Below are positions 4,022 to 15,193 of a DNA stretch of 64,000 nucleotides, in pieces. The stretch comes from Dissulfurispira thermophila. GTDB lineage: Bacteria > Nitrospirota > Thermodesulfovibrionia > Thermodesulfovibrionales > Dissulfurispiraceae. The notes under the pieces were generated by a model that did no database searches, had not been told where the DNA came from, and was given only the letters and a program-made list of their open reading frames with translations. The stretch is from contig NZ_AP022873.1 of the NCBI RefSeq assembly GCF_014701235.1, forward strand, positions 620,001 to 684,000, in the 5' to 3' direction. The position numbers and the translations under genes were made by a program. How positions within the stretch are numbered: the first letter of the stretch is position 1; each line of letters starts with the position of its first letter.

Positions 4022-4037
4022 TGGCATCTATCTTGCT
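4022..4037 (+). promoter_or_regulatory. Sigma-54 (-24/-12) promoter
   Basis: The sequence TGGCATCTATCTTGCT fits the sigma-54 consensus TGGCAY-R-N4-TTGCW at every fixed position except the R, where a C is present. The GG and GC doublets have canonical spacing. It lies about 40 bp before the start of the USP-like gene at 4078 and about 100 bp after an NtrC-type regulator gene. It likely drives the 4078-7665 group of genes. No convincing enhancer palindrome was seen in 3923-4021. Confidence 0.78.
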
Positions 4038-4077
4038 CTTCATAAGGGTAAAGCGCCAAAAAGGTGTGGAGGAAGAG

Positions 4078-4575
4078 ATGGGAAAAAAACAAATTCTGTT
4101 TGTTACCTATCATGATGAAAACCTTGAATCAGGGCTTTCATATGCTGTGGATCTGGCTAAAACCATGAATGAAGATATTTCCATATTGATGCTCTATAGA
4201 AGAAAGGTGATGGAAAAATTTGAAGATTATATGGCAGCGGTTGCATTTGCCGAAGACGGTGAGTTTAAAACAGCAAGGGAATTAATAATGGATGACCTCA
4301 AAAGAAAAAATGAGAGCTATGAAGAAAAAGTCTGTCTTTTCGTGGAAAGGTGTAAAGAATTAGGGGTTTCTGCAGATGTCAACACATCATCTAATGATGT
4401 CATCTCTGCAATAAGAAACCTTATCAGTCAAAACACAAAAATCGACATGGTGTTATTAAGTCCTTCTGTAACACATGATGGCCATGTTACAGCAAAGGAA
4501 CTCAATAAACTTGTAAAAATTGCATCCAGACCGATAGTAACAATGGTAAAAAACGAAAAGGCACATGTTGCTTAA
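4078..4575 (+). CDS. USP-like (HUP-fold) protein
   Basis: A 165-residue alpha/beta protein. It starts KKQILFVTYHDENLESGLSYA, has alternating helices and strands, and ends with IDMVLLSPS followed by RPIVTMV, the order seen in UspA-fold proteins. The G-x2-G-x9-G-S nucleotide motif is not visible, so it may belong to the branch that does not bind ATP. The frame is open from 4033, but that region lies inside the sigma-54 promoter. The ATG at 4078, preceded by GGAGGAAGAG, is therefore the start. It is the first gene after the promoter and is followed after 24 bp by a TSUP transporter, so it may be a regulator or companion of that transporter. Confidence 0.72.
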   Translation: MGKKQILFVTYHDENLESGLSYAVDLAKTMNEDISILMLYRRKVMEKFEDYMAAVAFAEDGEFKTARELIMDDLKRKNESYEEKVCLFVERCKELGVSADVNTSSNDVISAIRNLISQNTKIDMVLLSPSVTHDGHVTAKELNKLVKIASRPIVTMVKNEKAHVA

Positions 4576-4599
4576 TAAAAACAAAAGGAGGAGTGGTAA

Positions 4600-5532
4600 A
4601 TGTATCTTTATTTGCCTGTAGCTTTAACGAGTATTAATATCTTAATCCCCATATGTCTTGGTCTTGCTGTGGGGCTGCTTTCAGGGCTTTTTGGGGTTGG
4701 CGGAGGTTTTTTGATGACACCACTGCTGATCATGTTTGGCATACCATCAACAGTGGCAGCAGCTACTGATTCAAATCAGATCGTTGCTGCATCAACATCA
4801 GGGACATATGCACACTGGAAAGTAGGTAATGTAGATTTCAAGATGGGATTTCATCTTCTTATCGGAGGATTTATCGGAGGTCTTGTAGGCGTTCAAGCCA
4901 TTAAAATCTTAAGGGCAATGGGAAATGCAGACTTTGTAATAAAGATGACATATGTACTGATGCTCGGGATAGTGGGTACATACATGTTTATAGAAAGCTT
5001 GCAAAGCATGAAGAAATCGCATAAAAAAGACCATCCCCTACCCACTGAATCCACTGTAAAACAATCTGTTACAGCCTCATTCCTCAAATCATTGCCGTTT
5101 CAGACGCATTACGAAAAATCAGGTGTTACTCATTCGGCAATTATCCCTATTGCCTTTGGAGGCTTTGTTGGGGTTTTAGCAGCGGTTATGGGAGTTGGAG
5201 GGGGTTTTTTAATGGTGCCAGTCATGGTTTATATTCTTAGAATGCCAATGCATGTTGTAGTGGGCACGAGCCTTTTTCAGATATTGTTTAATTGCATCGA
5301 GGTGACTTTCCTTCAGGCATATACAAACCATAATGTTGATTTCATCCTTGCAGTGTTGCTTTTACTGGGTTCTACAGTGGGTGCACAGATTGGAGCTGTG
5401 TTTGGGAGGAAACTTAAAGGCGAGCAATTGAAAATAATCCTTGCAGTAATAGTGCTTATTGTGACGGTGAAAATAGTCCTTGATCTTACATTAACCCCAT
5501 CTTTGCTGCTCGGACAAGCGGGAGGACACTGA
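4600..5532 (+). CDS. TSUP family (TauE/SafE-like) membrane transporter
   Basis: A 310-residue integral membrane protein with about eight helices in two homologous halves. Each half begins with the family hallmark: GLLSGLFGVGGGFLMTP in the first and GVLAAVMGVGGGFLMVP in the second. A hydrophilic loop of about 40 residues (about 138-175) separates them. TSUP proteins move sulfur-containing anions or organic anions across the inner membrane; the substrate here is not visible. A strong AAAGGAGG ribosome site precedes the ATG. The next gene encodes a TIGR02186-like protein, a partner commonly seen beside TSUP genes, so they probably form one transport unit. It sits in the sigma-54-controlled group between USP genes. 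Confidence 0.9.
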   Translation: MYLYLPVALTSINILIPICLGLAVGLLSGLFGVGGGFLMTPLLIMFGIPSTVAAATDSNQIVAASTSGTYAHWKVGNVDFKMGFHLLIGGFIGGLVGVQAIKILRAMGNADFVIKMTYVLMLGIVGTYMFIESLQSMKKSHKKDHPLPTESTVKQSVTASFLKSLPFQTHYEKSGVTHSAIIPIAFGGFVGVLAAVMGVGGGFLMVPVMVYILRMPMHVVVGTSLFQILFNCIEVTFLQAYTNHNVDFILAVLLLLGSTVGAQIGAVFGRKLKGEQLKIILAVIVLIVTVKIVLDLTLTPSLLLGQAGGH

Positions 5533-5535
5533 TAT

Positions 5536-6324
5536 ATGAATCGCAAATTTCAAACTTCGAATTTTAAATTATTTATTTACATCTCTTTATTCTTGCTTAT
5601 ACTTGCAGGTCAGGCATTTGCTGATCTGACTGTGGATGCAAATCACAGCCATATAAAGATAGATTTTTTCTATCACGGAAGCACGATGAGCGTTAGAGGG
5701 ACTTCTGATCCGGGAGTTGATCTCATAATCAAGCTATCCTCACCTGAAGGGCATGAGACACTGAAGCAAAAGGGAAAGGTGGCTGGTGTCTTATGGATGA
5801 ATGTTGGGACATTGAATATAGAAGATGTGCCTGGTGTGTATTTTCTTCACAGCACAAAGAGGATAGAAGACATATTGAATGCAGAAGAAATGCAAAAGTA
5901 TGTCATTGGCTATGCTGCACTGGCAAAACACATAAGAATAAATCCTATTGCCAATAATGAAGACAAGGACAGATGGTTTAAAGAGTTTGTGAAGTTCAAG
6001 GAAAACTCAAAGCTATACTCTACTTCCACAGGAAAAATATCTTTCACAGAGAAAGATGGCAAGGGTAGTTATTATATTCTCACTGACTGGCCGTATCAGG
6101 TGCCTCCGGGAATATATACTGTTACGGTATATGCAGTGAAAGATAGACATGTTGTAGAGACCGCACAGACAAATATAATGGTCGAACAGGTAGGTATTGT
6201 TAGAACACTTGCCAGTATGGCAAAAAATAATGGTGCTGTATATGGGATCATATCGATTGTTGTAGCACTAATAGCAGGTTTTGGTGTTGGAATAATATTC
6301 AGGAAAGGTGGAGGCGCACATTAG
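5536..6324 (+). CDS. TIGR02186/Alph_Pro_TM-like membrane-anchored exported protein
   Basis: A 262-residue protein with a signal sequence (hydrophobic core about 13-27, cleavage expected near QAFA/DL). It has a beta-rich extracytoplasmic domain and a single C-terminal membrane helix (about 238-256) ending in a short basic tail. The layout and the location next to a TSUP gene match the TIGR02186 family (putative transmembrane protein), which has no established biochemical role. It starts 3 bp after the transporter stop. The first 12 codons are written in an AT-rich 'word' (TTTCAAACTTCGAATTTTAAA) that also appears in spacers elsewhere in this window, so the N-terminus may include inserted spacer DNA. 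Confidence 0.75.
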   Translation: MNRKFQTSNFKLFIYISLFLLILAGQAFADLTVDANHSHIKIDFFYHGSTMSVRGTSDPGVDLIIKLSSPEGHETLKQKGKVAGVLWMNVGTLNIEDVPGVYFLHSTKRIEDILNAEEMQKYVIGYAALAKHIRINPIANNEDKDRWFKEFVKFKENSKLYSTSTGKISFTEKDGKGSYYILTDWPYQVPPGIYTVTVYAVKDRHVVETAQTNIMVEQVGIVRTLASMAKNNGAVYGIISIVVALIAGFGVGIIFRKGGGAH

Positions 6325-6366
6325 TGCGAAATCCTCTCCAAATTAATAAAGAAAAAGGAGGAGGAG

Positions 6367-7224
6367 ATGTATAACAACATACTTGTGGCTTTTGATGGCT
6401 CTGAATTCAGCAAGGCAGCACTCATTGAGTCATCTAACTGGATAAAAAGACATGGTGGCAAGCTTATCATAGTGCATGCTGTATATTTTGATGAAGAGGA
6501 ATTCGGCATTGCCCCTGAGCAGAGGGAAAAGAGGTTTGAACTCGGCAAAAATATTTGTTATCAGACAAAAGAGACAATTTTGTCTGAATTTGCAATAGAT
6601 GTTGATTCTATCGTATGCGAAGGTGAACCGCCTGATATTATTGTGGATATAGCAAGAGAGAAAAAAACCGACCTTATTGCTATGGGAACTTATGGCAGAA
6701 AAGGGCTCAAGAGGTTGGTCATGGGAAGCGTTACATCAAAAGTGATTGTGAACTCACCATGTGATATTCTTGTTGTAAAGAAGCCATGCAGTGAATGTAC
6801 AGGTGAGTATAAATCAATACTCGTCCCATTTGATGGTTCTGAATTCAGTAAAAAAGCACTTGGGCATGCCTGTAGGATGTCGAAACTGGATAATGCAGAG
6901 ATAACAGTGCTTTATGTAATTCCGCGTTATGAAGAGATGGTAGAGTTTTTTAGAACAGAATCCATAAAAAAGAGTCTTATGCGGGAAGCTGAAAGGATTA
7001 TTGCAGAGGCAAAAAAGATTGCTTCGTCGGCTTCTGCATCAATATCTACAACGATTCAGGAAGGGTCTGCAGGAGACAGCATTATAGACATCGCGGGAAC
7101 ACTAAAAAATGACTTGATAGTGATGGGAACATATGGATGGAAGGGTGTAAGCAGAGCTATCATGGGAAGCACAACAGAGAGAGTGATAATGAATGCCTCA
7201 TGCCCTGTGTTGGTTGTGAGATGA
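6367..7224 (+). CDS. Tandem universal stress protein (two UspA domains)
   Basis: A 285-residue protein of two UspA domains (about 1-138 and 149-285). Both carry the ATP-binding loop: MGTYGRKGLKRLVMGSVTSK in the first and MGTYGWKGVSRAIMGSTTER in the second. The halves are joined by a linker containing KKPCSECTG, a Cys pair not usual for the family. A strong AAAAAGGAGGAGG precedes the ATG. It is the third USP-type gene in the cluster and 21 bp upstream of a single-domain USP gene. A cytoplasmic stress or energy-status role is inferred. Confidence 0.92.
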   Translation: MYNNILVAFDGSEFSKAALIESSNWIKRHGGKLIIVHAVYFDEEEFGIAPEQREKRFELGKNICYQTKETILSEFAIDVDSIVCEGEPPDIIVDIAREKKTDLIAMGTYGRKGLKRLVMGSVTSKVIVNSPCDILVVKKPCSECTGEYKSILVPFDGSEFSKKALGHACRMSKLDNAEITVLYVIPRYEEMVEFFRTESIKKSLMREAERIIAEAKKIASSASASISTTIQEGSAGDSIIDIAGTLKNDLIVMGTYGWKGVSRAIMGSTTERVIMNASCPVLVVR

Positions 7225-7245
7225 TGCTTACAGAGGTGATAGAAG

Positions 7246-7665
7246 ATGAAAGGATACAGAAAGATCTTAATAGCAGTGAATGGCTCAAAGGATGTACTTA
7301 AAGAGGGGCTGCAGCTTGCCCATGATGAAAGATGCTGGGTTACGGTTGTAAAAGTGATCCCCCCCTATGAAGGAGACCTTAATCTCGTGGGTATTAAAAA
7401 TATTGATGATTTGCTGAATAGCGAGGCGACAAAGGCTATTTCAGAGATAAAGGATATTGCAAAAAAAGAGGGTGCTTTAATAAAGACAAGGCTTGAAGAG
7501 GGCGAAGTTGATAAAAAGATTGTGGAGGTCGCTGAAGACGAAAGGTGTGATCTAATCATAATGGGAGCAGATAAGAGGAGCTGGATTAAAAAGATTTTAG
7601 GTAAGAATGTTGTTGAAAAGGTCATAAATCATGCTCCATGTCCTGTATTGGTAGTCGGGACATAG
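7246..7665 (+). CDS. Single-domain universal stress protein
   Basis: A 139-residue UspA-fold protein. The N-terminal strand ILIAVNGSKD is followed by the family helix. The C-terminal signature region MGADKRSWIKKILGKNVVEK departs from G-x2-G-x9-GS because the second glycine is missing (DKRS) and GS is replaced by GK, so ATP binding is doubtful. Its first half resembles the N-terminal domain of the protein encoded at base 1 (ARNEKSWITVVSVVPEYRGDLDLV against AHDERCWVTVVKVIPPYEGDLNLV style spacing), suggesting local duplication. Ribosome site GAGGTGAT. It is followed 14 bp later by the DUF202 repeat gene. Confidence 0.88.
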   Translation: MKGYRKILIAVNGSKDVLKEGLQLAHDERCWVTVVKVIPPYEGDLNLVGIKNIDDLLNSEATKAISEIKDIAKKEGALIKTRLEEGEVDKKIVEVAEDERCDLIIMGADKRSWIKKILGKNVVEKVINHAPCPVLVVGT

Positions 7666-7679
7666 ACTGATGATTATTT

Positions 7680-9320
7680 ATGCAGAACAAGAGATTCGAG
7701 AGACTGATTGACAGGAGGATTTTAACAGAATCGGAACTCAATGAAGCCATAGATAAATCAAGGATTTCAGGGGAGTATCCCGAAGAGGTATTGATAAAAG
7801 AGGGCATTCCAAAACACGAAATATTATTCTGTCTTTCTGAATATTATGGCTATCCTTTTGGTGAGTATGATGAGAGTGTTATTGCCTCTTATTTCCTTAC
7901 CATGCGGCTTGACATGGAGAAACTTAAGAATGCCCTCTGGTTTCCACTCTCTGTCAGACAGGATAAGGCTGAAGTAATAGCATACAATCCTTATAATCCA
8001 TCTGTTGTTGAAGACATAAAAAAGACACTGGGTATTAAAAATATCGACTTCATTGTTGCTTTGCCCTCTGACATTGTAAGGATTATAGAACATAACTTTG
8101 ATGTGAATCCAAATTTCCCCAAAATTGCGGCGAGAACACCGCTTGCAAAGGTAAGGACATTTCTTGCTGACCGCCGCTCTATGATGGCTTGTTATAGGAC
8201 CTCTCTTGCAAAGGGGAGAACAGGCCTTGCATTTATCCGCACCGGCATATCTTTTATAGCCATTTCTTTAGTGCTTTTAAGGATTTTCGGCATAGGCTAT
8301 CTGACCATTTTTGAAGCATTGCTTTTTATGGCTGGCATTGTGATGGCAATGGATGGTCTTATGTGGTATCTCCCTTCTCGCAGGACCGGCAAGAAATTGC
8401 TTGACTGCGCATCTACAGAGACCACATGGGGAAGCACGGTCCTTAAGGTTTCCAACCCCGGAGATAATCCGTATTTTACCCGCACTGACCCTGTGGAAGG
8501 AGCAGATAAGCTGCGCGCTGGTTGGAACAGCCTGTCGCCAGTAATGAGAAGGAGATTTCTTGCCAGTGATAGGACAGATATGGCTGAGGAAAGGACTGTC
8601 CTTGCATGCTACAGAACAGCCATGGCGCGGGCACGCACAGGGCTTGCTTTTACACGATCGGGAATTGCATTCATAGGACTTGGCATTGCATTGTTGAGAC
8701 AATTCCATGAAGGTCCTTGGACACTGCTGGATGCCGGACTCATATTGATTGGCGCTGCAATGGCCATGGAGGGCGTTCACTGGTATATGCCCGGTCGCCG
8801 TGCAGGCATAGAGGGTTTTGAATCGGTTCAAAGGGCAGAGGGAAACAAGAGCATCTGGGATTTTATCTTCCCGCCCTCCCTTAAACAGATAAATGCAGAA
8901 TATGTATATGCTCCTCCTGTCAGGGCATCTCACGCTCCTGGCATATGGGCAACCACGGGACTTGCCCTTGAGCGGACAGTGCTTGCAGACAGAAGGAATG
9001 TGATGGCAAGGCTCCGTACCGTAATGGCAAGGTCTAGGACAGGAATGGCATTCATAAGAACAGGCATGGCCATATCTGCTGCTGGAATAGGGCTTCTGGT
9101 TTATTTCGGGGCAGGGAATAAGGCATGGGCAATATTTGATATTTTGATGATAGTATTCGGCTTGATGTTTATTATCGACGGCCTTTACTGGAATATCCTT
9201 GCTGAAAAGGTAAAGAGGCAATTTCCATACTGTTTTGGGGAGATGGAGATTGTTGTGCCTGATTACGGGAAGCCTGCCCGTTGTTGGAGAAAGGTGATAT
9301 TCAGTCATGATGAACTTTGA
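7680..9320 (+). CDS. GspE/MshE N-terminal domain fused to three DUF202 membrane modules
   Basis: A 546-residue protein. Residues 1-145 resemble the N-terminal domain of type II secretion/MshE ATPases (ILTESELNEAI, then EVLIKEGI, then a strand-rich half), but no ATPase domain follows. Three DUF202-type modules then occupy about 151-239, 289-377 and 426-506. Each begins with a helix built on a seven-residue pattern, L-A-x-x-R-T-x repeated four to five times, and runs into two or three membrane helices ending near DGLxWY. DUF202 occurs in YidH and in the VTC1 membrane unit of polyphosphate polymerase. Three copies plus this N-terminal domain is an arrangement I do not recognise. The gene overlaps the next, related gene by 14 bp. 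Role unknown; an anion or lipid-associated membrane assembly is speculation. Confidence 0.72.
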   Translation: MQNKRFERLIDRRILTESELNEAIDKSRISGEYPEEVLIKEGIPKHEILFCLSEYYGYPFGEYDESVIASYFLTMRLDMEKLKNALWFPLSVRQDKAEVIAYNPYNPSVVEDIKKTLGIKNIDFIVALPSDIVRIIEHNFDVNPNFPKIAARTPLAKVRTFLADRRSMMACYRTSLAKGRTGLAFIRTGISFIAISLVLLRIFGIGYLTIFEALLFMAGIVMAMDGLMWYLPSRRTGKKLLDCASTETTWGSTVLKVSNPGDNPYFTRTDPVEGADKLRAGWNSLSPVMRRRFLASDRTDMAEERTVLACYRTAMARARTGLAFTRSGIAFIGLGIALLRQFHEGPWTLLDAGLILIGAAMAMEGVHWYMPGRRAGIEGFESVQRAEGNKSIWDFIFPPSLKQINAEYVYAPPVRASHAPGIWATTGLALERTVLADRRNVMARLRTVMARSRTGMAFIRTGMAISAAGIGLLVYFGAGNKAWAIFDILMIVFGLMFIIDGLYWNILAEKVKRQFPYCFGEMEIVVPDYGKPARCWRKVIFSHDEL

Positions 9321-10512
9321 TACGACAACAGAAAGATTCCTTGTATTGCTGAATTGGGGAGTTTTAACTGAACTGCAACTTCGTGCAGCAGAGACTACTG
9401 CTATTGCAAGAGGCATTGAAATCGAGAAGGTGCTTATAAGAGAATTTGGAGTGCCCAAGCGCATTTTGCTTCAGGCCCTTTCGGATTATTACAACTGCCC
9501 CTTTGTGGAATACGACGAGAAAATGCCCATCCCGCCAGAACTGCTCTCGGGTCTTGACAGTGAAAGACTTTCCATGAGTCAATGGTTCCCAATTATCAGA
9601 GATGGGGACATCGTTGTTATAGCTGCAAGTAATCCTGAAGACCCTATGATTCACGATGAAGTCAAAAAATATATCAGGGCAGATAAATATGAATTCTGGA
9701 TAGCACTGTCTGAGGATATTCAATGGTTTATACAGGACTTTTTACATGCAAAGCCCGGATATCTGATAGGAACAGAAAGGACAGGCCTAGCATTCTGGCG
9801 CAACACAATGGCTCACTGGAGAACAAGACTTGCCTGTTACAGAAATGACCTTGCAAATGCAAGAACAGACCTTGCGGTCCTAAGGTGGGGGCTTGGATTT
9901 ATTGCTATATCTGATACACTAATGCGCACGCAAAAATTTGGCTCTAAGTTCTATTTATACTGGCTTATGATGGCTACAGGTTTTGTCCTTGGTGTTCGTG
10001 GATTATCAGGCTATCTGAGGATAAGGAAATCGAGGATGTCCCCTCCACAGCATCAGACCCTTGTGGAGGTTACATCTGCGACGCTTAATTTTTTAGAACA
10101 TTATCATTTTATTGAAAATACAGGAGTGGAAGTGCCCACGAAAAAAACCATGCTTGCCCGTCTCGGCGATTTTCTTGCCAACCACTGCACTATACTTTAT
10201 CCCTCACCTTCCAGCAGGGAACGCACACATCTTGCCAGAGAAAGGAATGTGCTTGCAGCACAACGGACAGTGGCAGCATGCTACCGCACCATATATGCAC
10301 GGGCAAGGACAGGCCTTGCATTTATAAGAACAGGTATTTCCTTTTCCAGTATTGGTCTGGGACTTATACACTATTTCAGTTTCAGTCTGTTGACACTGTT
10401 TGATTCTTTGCTCATCGTCTCCGGTATGCTGATGATCATTGACGGCATATTGTGGTATATGCCTGTGAGAAAGGAACAGTCGGAAATCCCAAGGTGTCCT
10501 GTGACTGAATAG
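9307..10512 (+). CDS. GspE/MshE N-terminal domain fused to two DUF202 membrane modules
   Basis: A 401-residue paralogue of the preceding protein. The N-terminal 150 residues have the same plan (VLTELQLRAAE, VLIREFGVPKRILLQALSDYYNCPFVEYDE). DUF202-type modules lie at about 154-243 and 302-391. The Arg-rich heptads are again clear: RTGLAFWRNTMAHWRTRLAC in the first and the RERTHLARERNVLAAQRT stretch in the second. The start is one of two adjacent ATGs (9307 or 9310) inside the end of the upstream gene, indicating translational coupling. It is followed 6 bp later by a histidine kinase. The pair could form a hetero-oligomeric membrane complex whose cytoplasmic domains sense a nucleotide; related MshE N-terminal domains bind cyclic di-GMP, but the full binding motifs are not evident here. 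Confidence 0.72.
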   Translation: MMNFDTTTERFLVLLNWGVLTELQLRAAETTAIARGIEIEKVLIREFGVPKRILLQALSDYYNCPFVEYDEKMPIPPELLSGLDSERLSMSQWFPIIRDGDIVVIAASNPEDPMIHDEVKKYIRADKYEFWIALSEDIQWFIQDFLHAKPGYLIGTERTGLAFWRNTMAHWRTRLACYRNDLANARTDLAVLRWGLGFIAISDTLMRTQKFGSKFYLYWLMMATGFVLGVRGLSGYLRIRKSRMSPPQHQTLVEVTSATLNFLEHYHFIENTGVEVPTKKTMLARLGDFLANHCTILYPSPSSRERTHLARERNVLAAQRTVAACYRTIYARARTGLAFIRTGISFSSIGLGLIHYFSFSLLTLFDSLLIVSGMLMIIDGILWYMPVRKEQSEIPRCPVTE

Positions 10513-10518
10513 ACTGCC

Positions 10519-11919
10519 ATGAAAATAGAACATAAAATCATACTTTCCAATATATTTAATGTTGCCTTGATTGTGTTGATAGGACTCTTTGCCTTCCAGA
10601 ATCTGAACATCATGCTCACGAAGCTCAGGTTTATGGAAATAGCGGATGACCTGAATGCATCGTTTTTGGAGATGAGGCTTTCTGAAAAGAATTTTTTTCT
10701 TTACAGGGACGAAACTGCTCTTTCAGATATAAGGGAAAAGATAGACAGGACCATGGAATCCATAGGATCTGTGAAAAATGATGTAGTTCGTGCTGTTGGA
10801 GAAAAAAATTTTGAGATGCTAAATCTGCATTTAAAAAACTACTCCAGAGTTGTTGAAGAGATGAGAAAGAGTGTAAACAGAAATTTGCAACTCGAAATAA
10901 AAATCAGGACAGAGGGCAAGAAATTAAAGGAGTTTTCTGAAAATATTACTCGTCTTGAAAGAACAGAAGTCAACGATATTATCGCAAATTCAAAAAAGGT
11001 GCTTTTCTACTCGTTTGGAGCTATATTTCTGTCAGCAGTGCTCGTCAGCCACTTTATCTCTCAGAAGATACTGAGGTCTTTAAGAGAGATAGAGAGCCTT
11101 GCTATATCAATATCTGAAGGAAATTTTAGGAAGATCGAGAATATAAAATCCAGAGATGAATTTGGTTCTGTTATTAACGCCATAAATTTCATGTCAGATG
11201 AACTCAGCCATCGTGAGGAGCAGATTGTTCAATCGAAAAAACTTGCATCCATAGGCATTCTTACTGCTGGTGTAGCACATGAATTGACAAATCCGCTTAA
11301 CAACATATCAATGATTGCTCAGACATATACTGAACTCTACGATAAACTAAGTAATGAAGATAGGATCGATTTTATGAACAGGGTGGAGAAAGAGGCTGAT
11401 AGGATAAAAGAAATTGTCAGAAATCTACTTGATTTCTCCAAACCAAAGGAAGCAAATCTCAATGAGGCTGACATCAACGATGTCATAAAAAAGACACTCA
11501 GGCTGGTGCAGAATATGCTTGATATATCAAATATCGAAACAAAATTAAATCTCAAAGAATGGCTCCCTCATGTACTTATCGATGAACATCAGATAGTGCA
11601 GGTGCTTGTGAATCTTATTACAAATGCTGTCCATGCAATGACAGGAGGAGGCCTTCTTTTTATTAGATCAAAAGAAGGGAGCAACAATGGCTTTGTAGAA
11701 ATAACAGTAGCGGACACAGGAAAGGGCATACCACCTGAGTTTCTGCCTCATATATTCGACCCATTTTTCAGTACAAAGGGAGACAAAGGTACAGGGCTTG
11801 GTTTATCTGTTAGCTATGGAATAATCAAAAACCATAAAGGCAATATAAGGGTTGAAAGCAAGGTGGGGGTAGGAACGACTTTTACTATAGAATTGCCAAT
11901 TGCACATAAGGGGGACTGA
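10519..11919 (+). CDS. Membrane sensor histidine kinase
   Basis: A 466-residue kinase with a membrane helix at about 8-27, a helical periplasmic region of about 135 residues (SFLEMRLSEKNFFLYRDE near 50-65) and a second membrane helix about 167-187. A HAMP domain follows. HisKA has the phosphorylated His254 (VAHELTNPLNNI). The HATPase shows NLITNAVHAM, DTGKGIP and GTGLGLSV. The sensor resembles that of the kinase at 847. The start lies 6 bp after the DUF202 gene and the receiver gene at 12004 follows, so the kinase probably signals to that receiver. The stimulus is unknown; the link to the DUF202 proteins is by position only. Confidence 0.92.
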   Translation: MKIEHKIILSNIFNVALIVLIGLFAFQNLNIMLTKLRFMEIADDLNASFLEMRLSEKNFFLYRDETALSDIREKIDRTMESIGSVKNDVVRAVGEKNFEMLNLHLKNYSRVVEEMRKSVNRNLQLEIKIRTEGKKLKEFSENITRLERTEVNDIIANSKKVLFYSFGAIFLSAVLVSHFISQKILRSLREIESLAISISEGNFRKIENIKSRDEFGSVINAINFMSDELSHREEQIVQSKKLASIGILTAGVAHELTNPLNNISMIAQTYTELYDKLSNEDRIDFMNRVEKEADRIKEIVRNLLDFSKPKEANLNEADINDVIKKTLRLVQNMLDISNIETKLNLKEWLPHVLIDEHQIVQVLVNLITNAVHAMTGGGLLFIRSKEGSNNGFVEITVADTGKGIPPEFLPHIFDPFFSTKGDKGTGLGLSVSYGIIKNHKGNIRVESKVGVGTTFTIELPIAHKGD

Positions 11920-12003
11920 ATCCACCTTGCGAAATCGACCTATAGATTTTTAAGATTGCCTTGCAATCTAACAAAAGAGAAGACTTATGGAGGACAATTG
12001 AAT

Positions 12004-12423
12004 ATGGATAAAGAGATCTCAAAAGAAGGGGTTCAAGTGGGAGAAGAAATCTCTTCCGCGCCCAAATGCAGAATTATGGTTATTGATGACGAAAAGATTG
12101 TTGGAGACATGGCAAAGATGTCTCTTGAACATGATGGTTATATTGTAGAGACATTTTTGAATGCAGAGCCAGCACTATCAAGGTTAAAGGAAGAAAAATT
12201 CGATGTGGTTGTTACTGACTACAAGATGAAGGGAATAGACGGTATGGAGGTGCTGAGGGCTGTGAAGAAACTGTATCCTGAAACAAAGGTAATTATGATT
12301 ACTGCCTTTGCAAATCTTGATACTGCTATTGAGGCATTAAGAGGAGATGTGCATGACTTTTTCCCGAAGCCTGTGAAGATAAAGGAATTGAAGGCATCTA
12401 TTCAACGCGCACTAAGCAAATAA
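12004..12423 (+). CDS. Single-domain response regulator
   Basis: A 139-residue protein that is essentially one CheY-like receiver domain after a 20-residue acidic tail. Key residues: VIDDE for Mg binding, Asp72 as phospho-acceptor (VVTDYKMKGIDG), the conserved Thr/Ala switch region MITAFA, and FPKPVK for the conserved lysine. No output domain follows, so it must act by protein contact or as a phosphate shuttle. The frame is open from 11956, but ATG 12004 with GGAGGACAA before it is the better start. It sits between a kinase and a PEP-synthase-like gene. Confidence 0.9.
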   Translation: MDKEISKEGVQVGEEISSAPKCRIMVIDDEKIVGDMAKMSLEHDGYIVETFLNAEPALSRLKEEKFDVVVTDYKMKGIDGMEVLRAVKKLYPETKVIMITAFANLDTAIEALRGDVHDFFPKPVKIKELKASIQRALSK

Positions 12424-12523: not shown

Positions 12524-15193
12524 ATGAAAAATCTTGTTAAACATTTAAAATCTATTTTCAGTTTTTATAACAAAGGCACATCAGAATTAATGTCTTTCAG
12601 GCTTATTTTTACCCGATTCAGACAGGTGCTTGATTCACATAACAGGGCAGTTGAGATTATTGCAGATATGGGTGACAAGCTTGGAGGAGATTACCTATTT
12701 GACATTAACTACATAAAAAAGGCTTATTCTGAATTGTCCGATGCTATGTATAATTCCCTTGAAGACTTTGATATTCTTACTAAAAATAAGTATCTAAAGC
12801 TTCACGATGTATTTGATAATATTGATGCCTTGATTAAAAGAACAATATATGATATCCCTTCTGCATGCAACGAGTTGATTTTGTTGTGTGAAGATATTAT
12901 GTGGGAAAGATATAGCGAGGTGGGGGGTAAAAGTGCAAATCTTGCAGAGATAAAAAATTATCTAAAAATCAATGTGCCAGATGGATTTGCAATAACAACC
13001 CGTGCTTTTGATGAATTTATAAAACACAATGGACTCAATGAGAAGATTGAATCTCTTGTTGAAGGAGTTGTTAAGGAATCTGCACTTAATGAATTGCAAG
13101 ATCTGGTTATCAACGCAGAGATACCTCCTGAACTAAATGATGCTATAGACAGCGCCATCAAGAGATTTGAAAAAGGATTTCGCAAAGACAACAATGTCCC
13201 CCTTGCATGTTCAGTAAGGAGCAGTGCTGTGGAAGAGGATGGGGAGTTTTCCTTTGCAGGTCAATTTGAAACTATAATGAATGTACCTTTAGAATGTGGG
13301 TCAGTGGAAGATGCGTACAAAAGAGTCATTGCCAGTCTATTTTCACCAAATGCCGTGTTATATCAACAGACCATTGGATATGATATAAGAAAGGCAAAGA
13401 TGGCAGTGTGCTGCATGCTCATGGTGGATGCAGCAACAAGTGGCGTCATATATTCTGCAAATCCAAATGGAGACGACAGCACAATGATAATAAACTCCTC
13501 ATGGGGACTCGGAAAATCTATTGTAGATGGTGAGGTTGATGCTGACCTTTATTTAGTCAGTAAAGGTGCGAATCCTGTAATTCTTAATACAAGAGTTGGT
13601 GAAAAAAACTATATGTTAACGAGACAGAATAACTATAAAATAAGCATGGTTAAACTCCCTGATGATATGGTCAAGAGGAGTTCTCTAACTGAACAGCAGG
13701 CAATTGAACTCTCAAGGCACGCTATGCTAATTGAGAAACATTTCAGAAAACCACAGGATATTGAATGGGCAATTGATAAGGATGGGAGAGTATTCATACT
13801 TCAGACAAGGCCATTAAGAGTGCAGGAGACACAAGCTGTCATCAGGATGAGTGAAGCTGCAAGGCAATCTTCGAAATCAACAGAGATTCCTATTCCTGAG
13901 TTTGCTGAGAGCGATACGACGAGATTTCTTGCTAACACCAGGAATGACTTGAGACAAAAGGCTCGAAGTGACAATATATTGATGAAAGACAAAGGTATTG
14001 TTGTTCAGCATGGCATTGGTGCGGGTAGAGTTTTTATCATGAAAAATATGGATGATATCGATAATTTCCCTAAAGGTGCTGTTCTTGTAGCAAGGAATGA
14101 CTCATCTAATTTTATAAGAATTATGCCATATGCATCAGCAATTATCACAGATGTAGGAGTGCCCACGAGCCATATGGCATCTCTCTGCAGGGAATTTAGG
14201 GTTCCAGCGATTGTCAACACAGGTAATGCAACGCAGATTCTCAGACACGGTCAGGAGGTTACAATTAATGCAAACGATGACAGTGCAATCATTTACAATG
14301 GGATTGATGATGAACTATTGGAGCATGCTGACACGAGTTTTATGAAGATGGAGAATGTGTATGAATTCAGGAAAAAGAGATACTTATTGAGATATATTTC
14401 ACCTCTTAATCTTATTGATCCATTACTGGATAATTTTACACCTGAAGGATGTAAAACTATTCATGATATATTAAGATTTATTCATGAGAAGTCTGTTATG
14501 GAACTTGTTGAGACAGCGATGGTTGGATTGAAAGGACAGGGTATGGTAAAACTTGACTTGCCTATACCCACTGGCATTGTGGTAGTTGATATTGGTGGTG
14601 GGCTTAATATTACTGAAGACAGAGTTGGAAAATACAAGGATAGAGTAACCTTTGAGCAGGTTGCTTCGATACCGCTCAGAGCAGTTCTTAAAGGGATGAT
14701 GCACACGGGTGTATGGCATGCCGATGCAGTTTCTTTAGGAGTAAGGGATTTTCTTTCGAGTATGATGAAGATGTCCGATATAACTTCAAACAGTATGGAG
14801 TATGTTGGATATAATGTGGCTGTAATATCAGGGGAATATCTGAATCTGAGCTTGAGGTTTGGATACCATTTTAATATGATAGATTGTTATTGTAGCGAAA
14901 ACACAAGGAATAATCACATATATTTTCGTTTTATAGGCGGTGCAACAGATATTGTGAAACGATCAAGAAGGATACAACTCATTGCAGTAATTTTGAAGAA
15001 ATATAATTTTAATATAAACATAAAGGGGGATATCATCATTGCAAGGCTTGCCAATATAAGGCAGGATGAGATGGACAATATCCTTGACCAGCTTGGCAGA
15101 TTGATTGCATATACAAGACAGCTCGATGCAGTGCTTAATGATGATGGCGCTGTTGAACGGTATGCAAGGCAATTCATGGAAGAAAAATACTGA
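12524..15193 (+). CDS. PEP synthase/PPDK-like phosphotransfer protein with atypical C-terminus
   Basis: An 889-residue protein. Residues about 1-118 are helical and unassigned. Residues about 120-435 form the ATP-grasp pyruvate/PPDK nucleotide domain (GGKSANLAEI, VRSSAVEED, FAGQFET, QDIEWAID, FILQTRPL). Residues about 490-600 form the swivelling phosphohistidine domain with the probable phospho-acceptor His550 (VPTSHMASLCREFRVPAIV). The usual PEP/pyruvate-binding TIM barrel is absent. Instead there is a roughly 270-residue C-terminal domain (NFTPEGCKTIHDILRFIHE and onward) seen in a family loosely annotated as PEP/pyruvate-binding proteins in anaerobes. ATP-dependent phosphorylation of His550 is likely; the final acceptor is not evident. 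It sits between a receiver gene and a DegP-type protease gene. Confidence 0.8.
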   Translation: MKNLVKHLKSIFSFYNKGTSELMSFRLIFTRFRQVLDSHNRAVEIIADMGDKLGGDYLFDINYIKKAYSELSDAMYNSLEDFDILTKNKYLKLHDVFDNIDALIKRTIYDIPSACNELILLCEDIMWERYSEVGGKSANLAEIKNYLKINVPDGFAITTRAFDEFIKHNGLNEKIESLVEGVVKESALNELQDLVINAEIPPELNDAIDSAIKRFEKGFRKDNNVPLACSVRSSAVEEDGEFSFAGQFETIMNVPLECGSVEDAYKRVIASLFSPNAVLYQQTIGYDIRKAKMAVCCMLMVDAATSGVIYSANPNGDDSTMIINSSWGLGKSIVDGEVDADLYLVSKGANPVILNTRVGEKNYMLTRQNNYKISMVKLPDDMVKRSSLTEQQAIELSRHAMLIEKHFRKPQDIEWAIDKDGRVFILQTRPLRVQETQAVIRMSEAARQSSKSTEIPIPEFAESDTTRFLANTRNDLRQKARSDNILMKDKGIVVQHGIGAGRVFIMKNMDDIDNFPKGAVLVARNDSSNFIRIMPYASAIITDVGVPTSHMASLCREFRVPAIVNTGNATQILRHGQEVTINANDDSAIIYNGIDDELLEHADTSFMKMENVYEFRKKRYLLRYISPLNLIDPLLDNFTPEGCKTIHDILRFIHEKSVMELVETAMVGLKGQGMVKLDLPIPTGIVVVDIGGGLNITEDRVGKYKDRVTFEQVASIPLRAVLKGMMHTGVWHADAVSLGVRDFLSSMMKMSDITSNSMEYVGYNVAVISGEYLNLSLRFGYHFNMIDCYCSENTRNNHIYFRFIGGATDIVKRSRRIQLIAVILKKYNFNINIKGDIIIARLANIRQDEMDNILDQLGRLIAYTRQLDAVLNDDGAVERYARQFMEEKY

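Follow-up and report, generated by a model that had tools for sequence, protein, structure and literature searches.

Two overlapping genes carrying five arginine-ladder DUF202 modules: a possible VTC-like conduit for a polyanion in Dissulfurispira thermophila

DUF202 proteins are common in bacteria, and the name still stands for a domain of unknown function. Two genes of Dissulfurispira thermophila, here called A and B, each join an N-terminal domain with the MshEN fold to two or three DUF202 modules headed by regularly spaced arginines (Table 1), and the locus raises the question of what such a set of modules does at the membrane. The genes lie in a 64,000-nucleotide stretch of DNA, here called the window, which corresponds to positions 620001-684000 of the 2.37 Mb single-contig genome. 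A first-pass annotation of the window had speculated on an Arg-lined path for an anionic polymer. Our own tentative reading, to which we give a probability of about 0.4, is that A and B together form a conduit for a polyanion, a ring of five modules resembling that of the yeast VTC complex.

Table 1. Features of the A/B locus, in window coordinates
Feature	Position	Strand	Basis or occurrence
Upstream block specific to one clade, with a 180-aa protein, a TauE/SafE exporter, an Alph_Pro_TM protein and two universal stress proteins	4033..7665	+	
ORF A, 546 aa: MshEN-fold domain and three DUF202 modules	7680..9320	+	Pfam, AlphaFold2, module profile
A MshEN-fold domain, without c-di-GMP motif	7680..8102	+	Pfam, motif scan, structure searches
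A module 1, with a 6-rung Arg ladder (aa 152-187) and two membrane spans	8133..8417	+	
A module 2, with a 6-rung Arg ladder (aa 291-326) and two membrane spans	8550..8834	+	
A module 3, with a 5-rung Arg ladder (aa 432-460) and two membrane spans	8952..9242	+	
14-base overlap, A stop / B start	9307..9320	+	
ORF B, 401 aa: MshEN-fold domain and two DUF202 modules	9307..10512	+	Pfam, AlphaFold2, module profile
B MshEN-fold domain, without c-di-GMP motif	9307..9747	+	Pfam, motif scan, structure search
B module 1, with a 6-rung Arg ladder (aa 158-193) and two membrane helices	9778..10065	+	
B module 2, with a 6-rung Arg ladder (aa 306-341) and two membrane spans	10222..10506	+	
Membrane histidine kinase (HAMP, HisKA, HATPase)	10519..11919	+	directly downstream in 57/68 testable loci
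Receiver domain protein lacking an output domain	11956..12423	+	downstream in 53/63 testable loci
PEP-synthase-like phosphotransferase	12524..15193	+	downstream in 39/57 testable loci

Analysis of the two reading frames bore out their description as a coupled, co-directional pair. A Shine-Dalgarno-like AAGG for B lay within the 3′-end of A, and in relatives the genes overlapped in 58 of 65 scored pairs, by exactly 14 bases in 36 of them (the choice of start codon was heuristic); this overlap suggests that the synthesis of the two proteins is coupled. Pfam matched the MshEN domain in A and B with E values of 6e-10 and 8.5e-11 respectively. DUF202 was matched in three stretches of A (63.8 bits, E 2e-17) and two stretches of B (28.3 bits, E 2.5e-6), the whole-protein cut-off being 23.4, and Pfam and NCBIfam scans found no ATPase domain in either protein. 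The GspE/MshE-like N-terminal domains lacking an ATPase and the five DUF202-type modules of the first-pass annotation were thus both confirmed. A 395-aa minus-strand ORF antisense to A (8277-9464) was discarded as probably a shadow of the A repeats.

The arginines of each ladder, which we call rungs, were spaced exactly seven residues apart. Any run of at least five such arginines occurred in only 10 of 5000 shuffled versions of A, which has three, and in 3 of 5000 shuffled versions of B, which has two. As the pattern was also retained in 44/58 A and 51/58 B relatives, the Arg heptads are not due to chance. AlphaFold2 models of the single chains (mean pLDDT 82 for A and 81 for B; pTM 0.77 and 0.59) predicted each ladder and the first membrane span (TM1) to be one continuous helix of 52-56 residues (A 152-203, 287-341 and 424-476; B 154-208 and 302-357), followed by one further membrane helix, giving two per module. 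The heptads had been read correctly, but the separate helix placed ahead of the membrane spans was not, since it is predicted to run on into TM1. By hydropathy the membrane spans of B module 1 were the weakest of the modules. The last two or three rungs of each ladder made up the ordinary DUF202 signature, to which three more had been added upstream. The RT-x5-RT core was present just ahead of TM1; four of the five module types had RTGLAFiRTG as their consensus, and B module 1 ended in RW. Because each module has two spans, both sides of every hairpin, and with them all five ladders, should be cytoplasmic; the Arg/Lys-rich ends that follow TM2 are consistent with this. With both ends of a hairpin on the same side, modules can be strung in tandem.

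A search for related loci in other genomes returned 120 relatives, and 80 loci were kept, which came from Nitrospirota, several Desulfobacterota families, a gammaproteobacterium and MAGs labelled Actinomycetes and Thermoleophilia. Scored by profile, three modules were present in every A protein (72/72) and two in every full-length B protein (73/73), and each of ten genomes with a complete pair had exactly five module matches and no sixth. The 3+2 module count is fixed, a finding that is new here. The arrangement had originally been matched to no described system, and we likewise found no description of an MshEN-DUF202 fusion or operon in the open-licence literature, which does not prove that none exists. 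An apparent three-module B at two loci (L104 and L108) turned out to be truncated A copies, and an apparent B-kinase fusion (L067) was a frameshift in the contig. One further locus carried two tandem A genes ahead of one B (L037, 10001-13464).

An alignment of 366 modules, which were not selected on Arg, had arginine at five rungs in 365, 366, 364, 365 and 352 modules, with only two lysines at these rungs in the whole set. The outermost, sixth rung was Arg in 292/366 and Thr in 74/366 modules; the threonines fit with the five-rung third module of A. Between the rungs the sequence was variable, except for small residues at position e and Leu/Met at position d (in modules selected for runs of at least five).

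Structure searches with A and B returned convincing matches for the MshEN part only. The N-terminal 140 residues shared their fold with the MshEN/GspE-N domains of MshE, PilB, PilF and XpsE (Z up to 14.5). Unlike these, A and B have no ATPase and have lost the c-di-GMP motif. The 24-residue c-di-GMP binding motif of MshEN (tandem, RLG...Q) was defined in PMC5013675; a relaxed form of it was found in 0/58 A and 0/58 B, while the genome encodes four other MshEN proteins, two of which have it. Many relatives began after the motif, and in many Desulfobacterota the segment was missing entirely. The earlier hint that the N-terminal domains bind c-di-GMP is therefore not supported, the motif being absent from all 116 proteins. 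These results also make it very improbable that the pair is a c-di-GMP-controlled polymer exporter, in the manner of MshEN glycosyltransferases such as NfrB, even though the MshEN fold is there and a c-di-GMP-controlled exopolysaccharide synthase provides a precedent (PMC8669469). Docking appears a more likely role for these domains than nucleotide sensing. Outside the pair, the MshEN domains most closely related to that of A were located at the start of long proteins of ~740-800 aa (for example G063:C43 and G269:C12).

The only DUF202 complex whose function is known to us carries polyphosphate. The channel of that complex, yeast VTC, consists of five TM1 helices, three from Vtc1 and one each from Vtc3 and Vtc4; K24 and R31 of Vtc1 and K622 and R629 of Vtc4 line its pore, which is narrowest at R31 and the equivalent residues (PMC9911596). 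When a mixed DUF202 profile, built from stand-alone proteins of the phylum and four window modules, was run against the PDB, the best matches were four Vtc1 chains of solved VTC structures (E 0.0016-0.0034), and Vtc4 was matched weakly (E 1.8 to 2.7). In these alignments two successive rungs fell on Vtc1 K24 and R31, and the first aligned rung fell on Vtc4 K622, which places the second on R629; by alignment to these chains, basic residues are present in the A/B modules at the pore positions of VTC TM1. A profile of the A/B modules only had no VTC match in the PDB, and it matched stand-alone DUF202 proteins only from about position 17 on. As only the mixed profile finds VTC, the link between A/B and VTC runs through the DUF202 family, and this, together with structure searches that were convincing for MshEN only, counts against our reading. 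The helical part of A and B gave scores typical of a common arrangement; VTC was not among the matches listed, which is uninformative either way, and a search of a viral structure library gave nothing significant. Also against a VTC-like conduit, the third span of the VTC subunits is absent from A/B, as are the TTM polymerase and SPX domains, for which Pfam found no match in A or B.

In the model that we nevertheless prefer, A and B would be made in equal amounts and join 1:1, and their five DUF202 hairpins would close a single ring of pseudo-five-fold symmetry in the inner membrane. Here the five long helices would stack six Arg layers, the innermost at the membrane entrance and the remainder forming a cytoplasmic vestibule ~5 nm long. 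Such a ring could attract a polyanion and move it, in the way that yeast VTC handles polyphosphate with its five TM1 helices. The kinase and receiver would switch the system on, and the MshEN domains would serve as docking sites. We infer the ring, the vestibule and the transport by A and B from the module count and from the register with the VTC pore residues. The Arg-lined path first speculated on gains support from the constant five modules, the nearly invariant arginines and the two rungs on VTC pore residues, but it is still a deduction from them. The modules might alternatively build a polyanion path in some other stoichiometry, for example with several A-B pairs side by side, which would make 3+2=5 a coincidence. 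The locus with two A genes and one B could be taken in this way, and A and B were folded as single chains only; we think it improbable, as five is exactly the VTC number and was invariant across the carriers examined.

The first-pass annotation had also proposed a larger signalling module around the pair. Counted over the loci with enough flanking sequence, the kinase, the receiver and the PEP-synthase-like enzyme were recurrent neighbours (Table 1) and this part of the proposal stood, but the USP and TauE genes were near the pair in 17-22 of 60 loci and represent a clade-specific extension. The constancy of the kinase and receiver, the most constant neighbours of all, is the basis of the main rival to the conduit model, in which the ladders and MshEN domains would bind a ligand or partner and relay its state to the kinase and receiver, with nothing crossing the membrane. 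MshEN domains of pilus ATPases do bind regulators such as PilZ in solved complexes, and such a pathway might have the enzyme as a further output. A scaffold of this kind leaves the fixed five modules and the five to six Arg rungs unexplained, however, and no such kinase followed the pair in the MAGs labelled Actinomycetes/Thermoleophilia or at L097, L098 and L112; we regard it as unlikely, though a serious contender. Some A+B pairs had no enzyme, kinase or receiver nearby, which also weighs against the conduit model as set out above.

Several loci differed in their gene content. In one genome (G009, L145, ~5445-6164) a single frame of 258 aa placed the start of A next to the enzyme gene's end, everything in between having apparently been lost as one block. 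Five Desulfobacterota loci (L076, L078, L079, L080 and L082) had up to four enzyme paralogues around A/B and a second kinase and receiver. Elsewhere in the window, between 18856 and 20806, five tRNA genes (Thr, Tyr, Gly, Thr, Trp) were clustered.

The downstream enzyme shared with the PEP synthase / PPDK family its ATP-binding and phosphohistidine domains, with their motifs retained. It differed from that family in that the PEP/pyruvate-binding TIM barrel was absent (Pfam) and a conserved C-terminal domain of 290 aa, which had no match in Pfam or the PDB, was present instead. This domain (14321-15190) contained invariant His, Asp and Arg residues, and many Nitrospirota have it in their PEP-synthase-like proteins, some of which are ~1060 aa long. 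The enzyme subfamily, taken as scores of at least about 390 bits, was present in 19/20 genomes with A and in 3/80 without (Fisher p 2e-16, an optimistic value, since the 390-bit line was set after the scores had been seen and neighbours of the pair were used in building the profile). In one genome (G043; L142, 3488-13999) A and B were missing from an otherwise corresponding locus with APT, the USPs, TauE and, in their usual order, kinase, receiver and enzyme; a stand-alone DUF202 gene was located 3 kb past the enzyme. In two others without A/B (G101 and G127; L140 2215-5064 and L141 2-1980) a stand-alone DUF202 gene directly followed the enzyme. The latter two provide a second tie between DUF202 and this enzyme, in few genomes and with stand-alone DUF202 genes occurring elsewhere as well.

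Under the conduit model polyphosphate would, speculatively, be the likeliest cargo, and the PEP-synthase-like enzyme would probably either supply phosphoryl groups from ATP or make the chain. PPK1 and PPK2 were both absent from the complete D. thermophila genome, so either the cargo is not polyphosphate or polyphosphate is made by something else; if it is the cargo, the operon enzyme is the obvious candidate for its maker. PPK1 was also absent from 97/100 relatives and from 35/40 A/B genomes, being present in 5/40, although these relatives are mostly MAGs and such absences are soft outside the complete genome. The only PPK1 carriers among the 100 relatives (G007, G019 and G093) all had A/B; the resulting association (3/20 A genomes, 0/80 others, p 0.007) was not relied on, as it involved two genera only. 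The missing PPK1 and PPK2 make polyphosphate uncertain as the cargo in D. thermophila. The lack of PPK1 in most carriers would also suit a channel for small anions (sulfite, sulfate, phosphate or pyrophosphate) in place of a polymer, as would the TauE/SafE anion exporter upstream in 22/60 testable loci and the release of phosphate or pyrophosphate by enzymes of this type. Six Arg layers seem excessive for such ions, and TauE is a feature of one clade and not universal, so we hold this reading to be rather improbable. The fullest form of the conduit model, a bacterial counterpart of VTC in which a covalently linked five-module ring is fed with a chain made by a phosphohistidine enzyme and not by PPK1, PPK2 or a TTM polymerase, we likewise consider a long shot.

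If this fullest form is true, there would be a further route to polyphosphate, or to a related phosphopolymer, in bacteria without PPK1 and PPK2. A pair of genes that itself specifies five modules makes the DUF202 pore hypothesis directly testable in bacteria, and A/B would offer a test case with one complex, a fixed stoichiometry and a distinct ladder for mutation. The phosphotransferase encoded beside it, with its uncharacterised acceptor domain, gives a handle on the cargo.

Compared with known DUF202 systems, the A/B modules share with the stand-alone bacterial proteins (PF02656), such as the 131-aa protein of the same genome, the Pfam match and a ANERTFLAWIRT-type core. The stand-alone proteins have one module, a third membrane span and no MshEN domain, whereas the modules of A and B have two membrane helices each and lack that third span; in stand-alone members of the phylum the rungs number two to four, three being usual. 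Yeast VTC is assembled from five chains with three spans per subunit and A/B from two chains with two spans per module; VTC has about two rungs where A/B has six, of Arg only, and carries TTM polymerase and SPX domains where the bacterial pair carries MshEN. Five DUF202 membrane domains are counted per complex in VTC and per gene pair in A/B, numbers that would correspond if one pair forms one complex. What the two have in common is a spacing of seven residues, between the pore residues of the one and the rungs of the other, in a register that sets two rungs of the bacterial ladder against K24 and R31.
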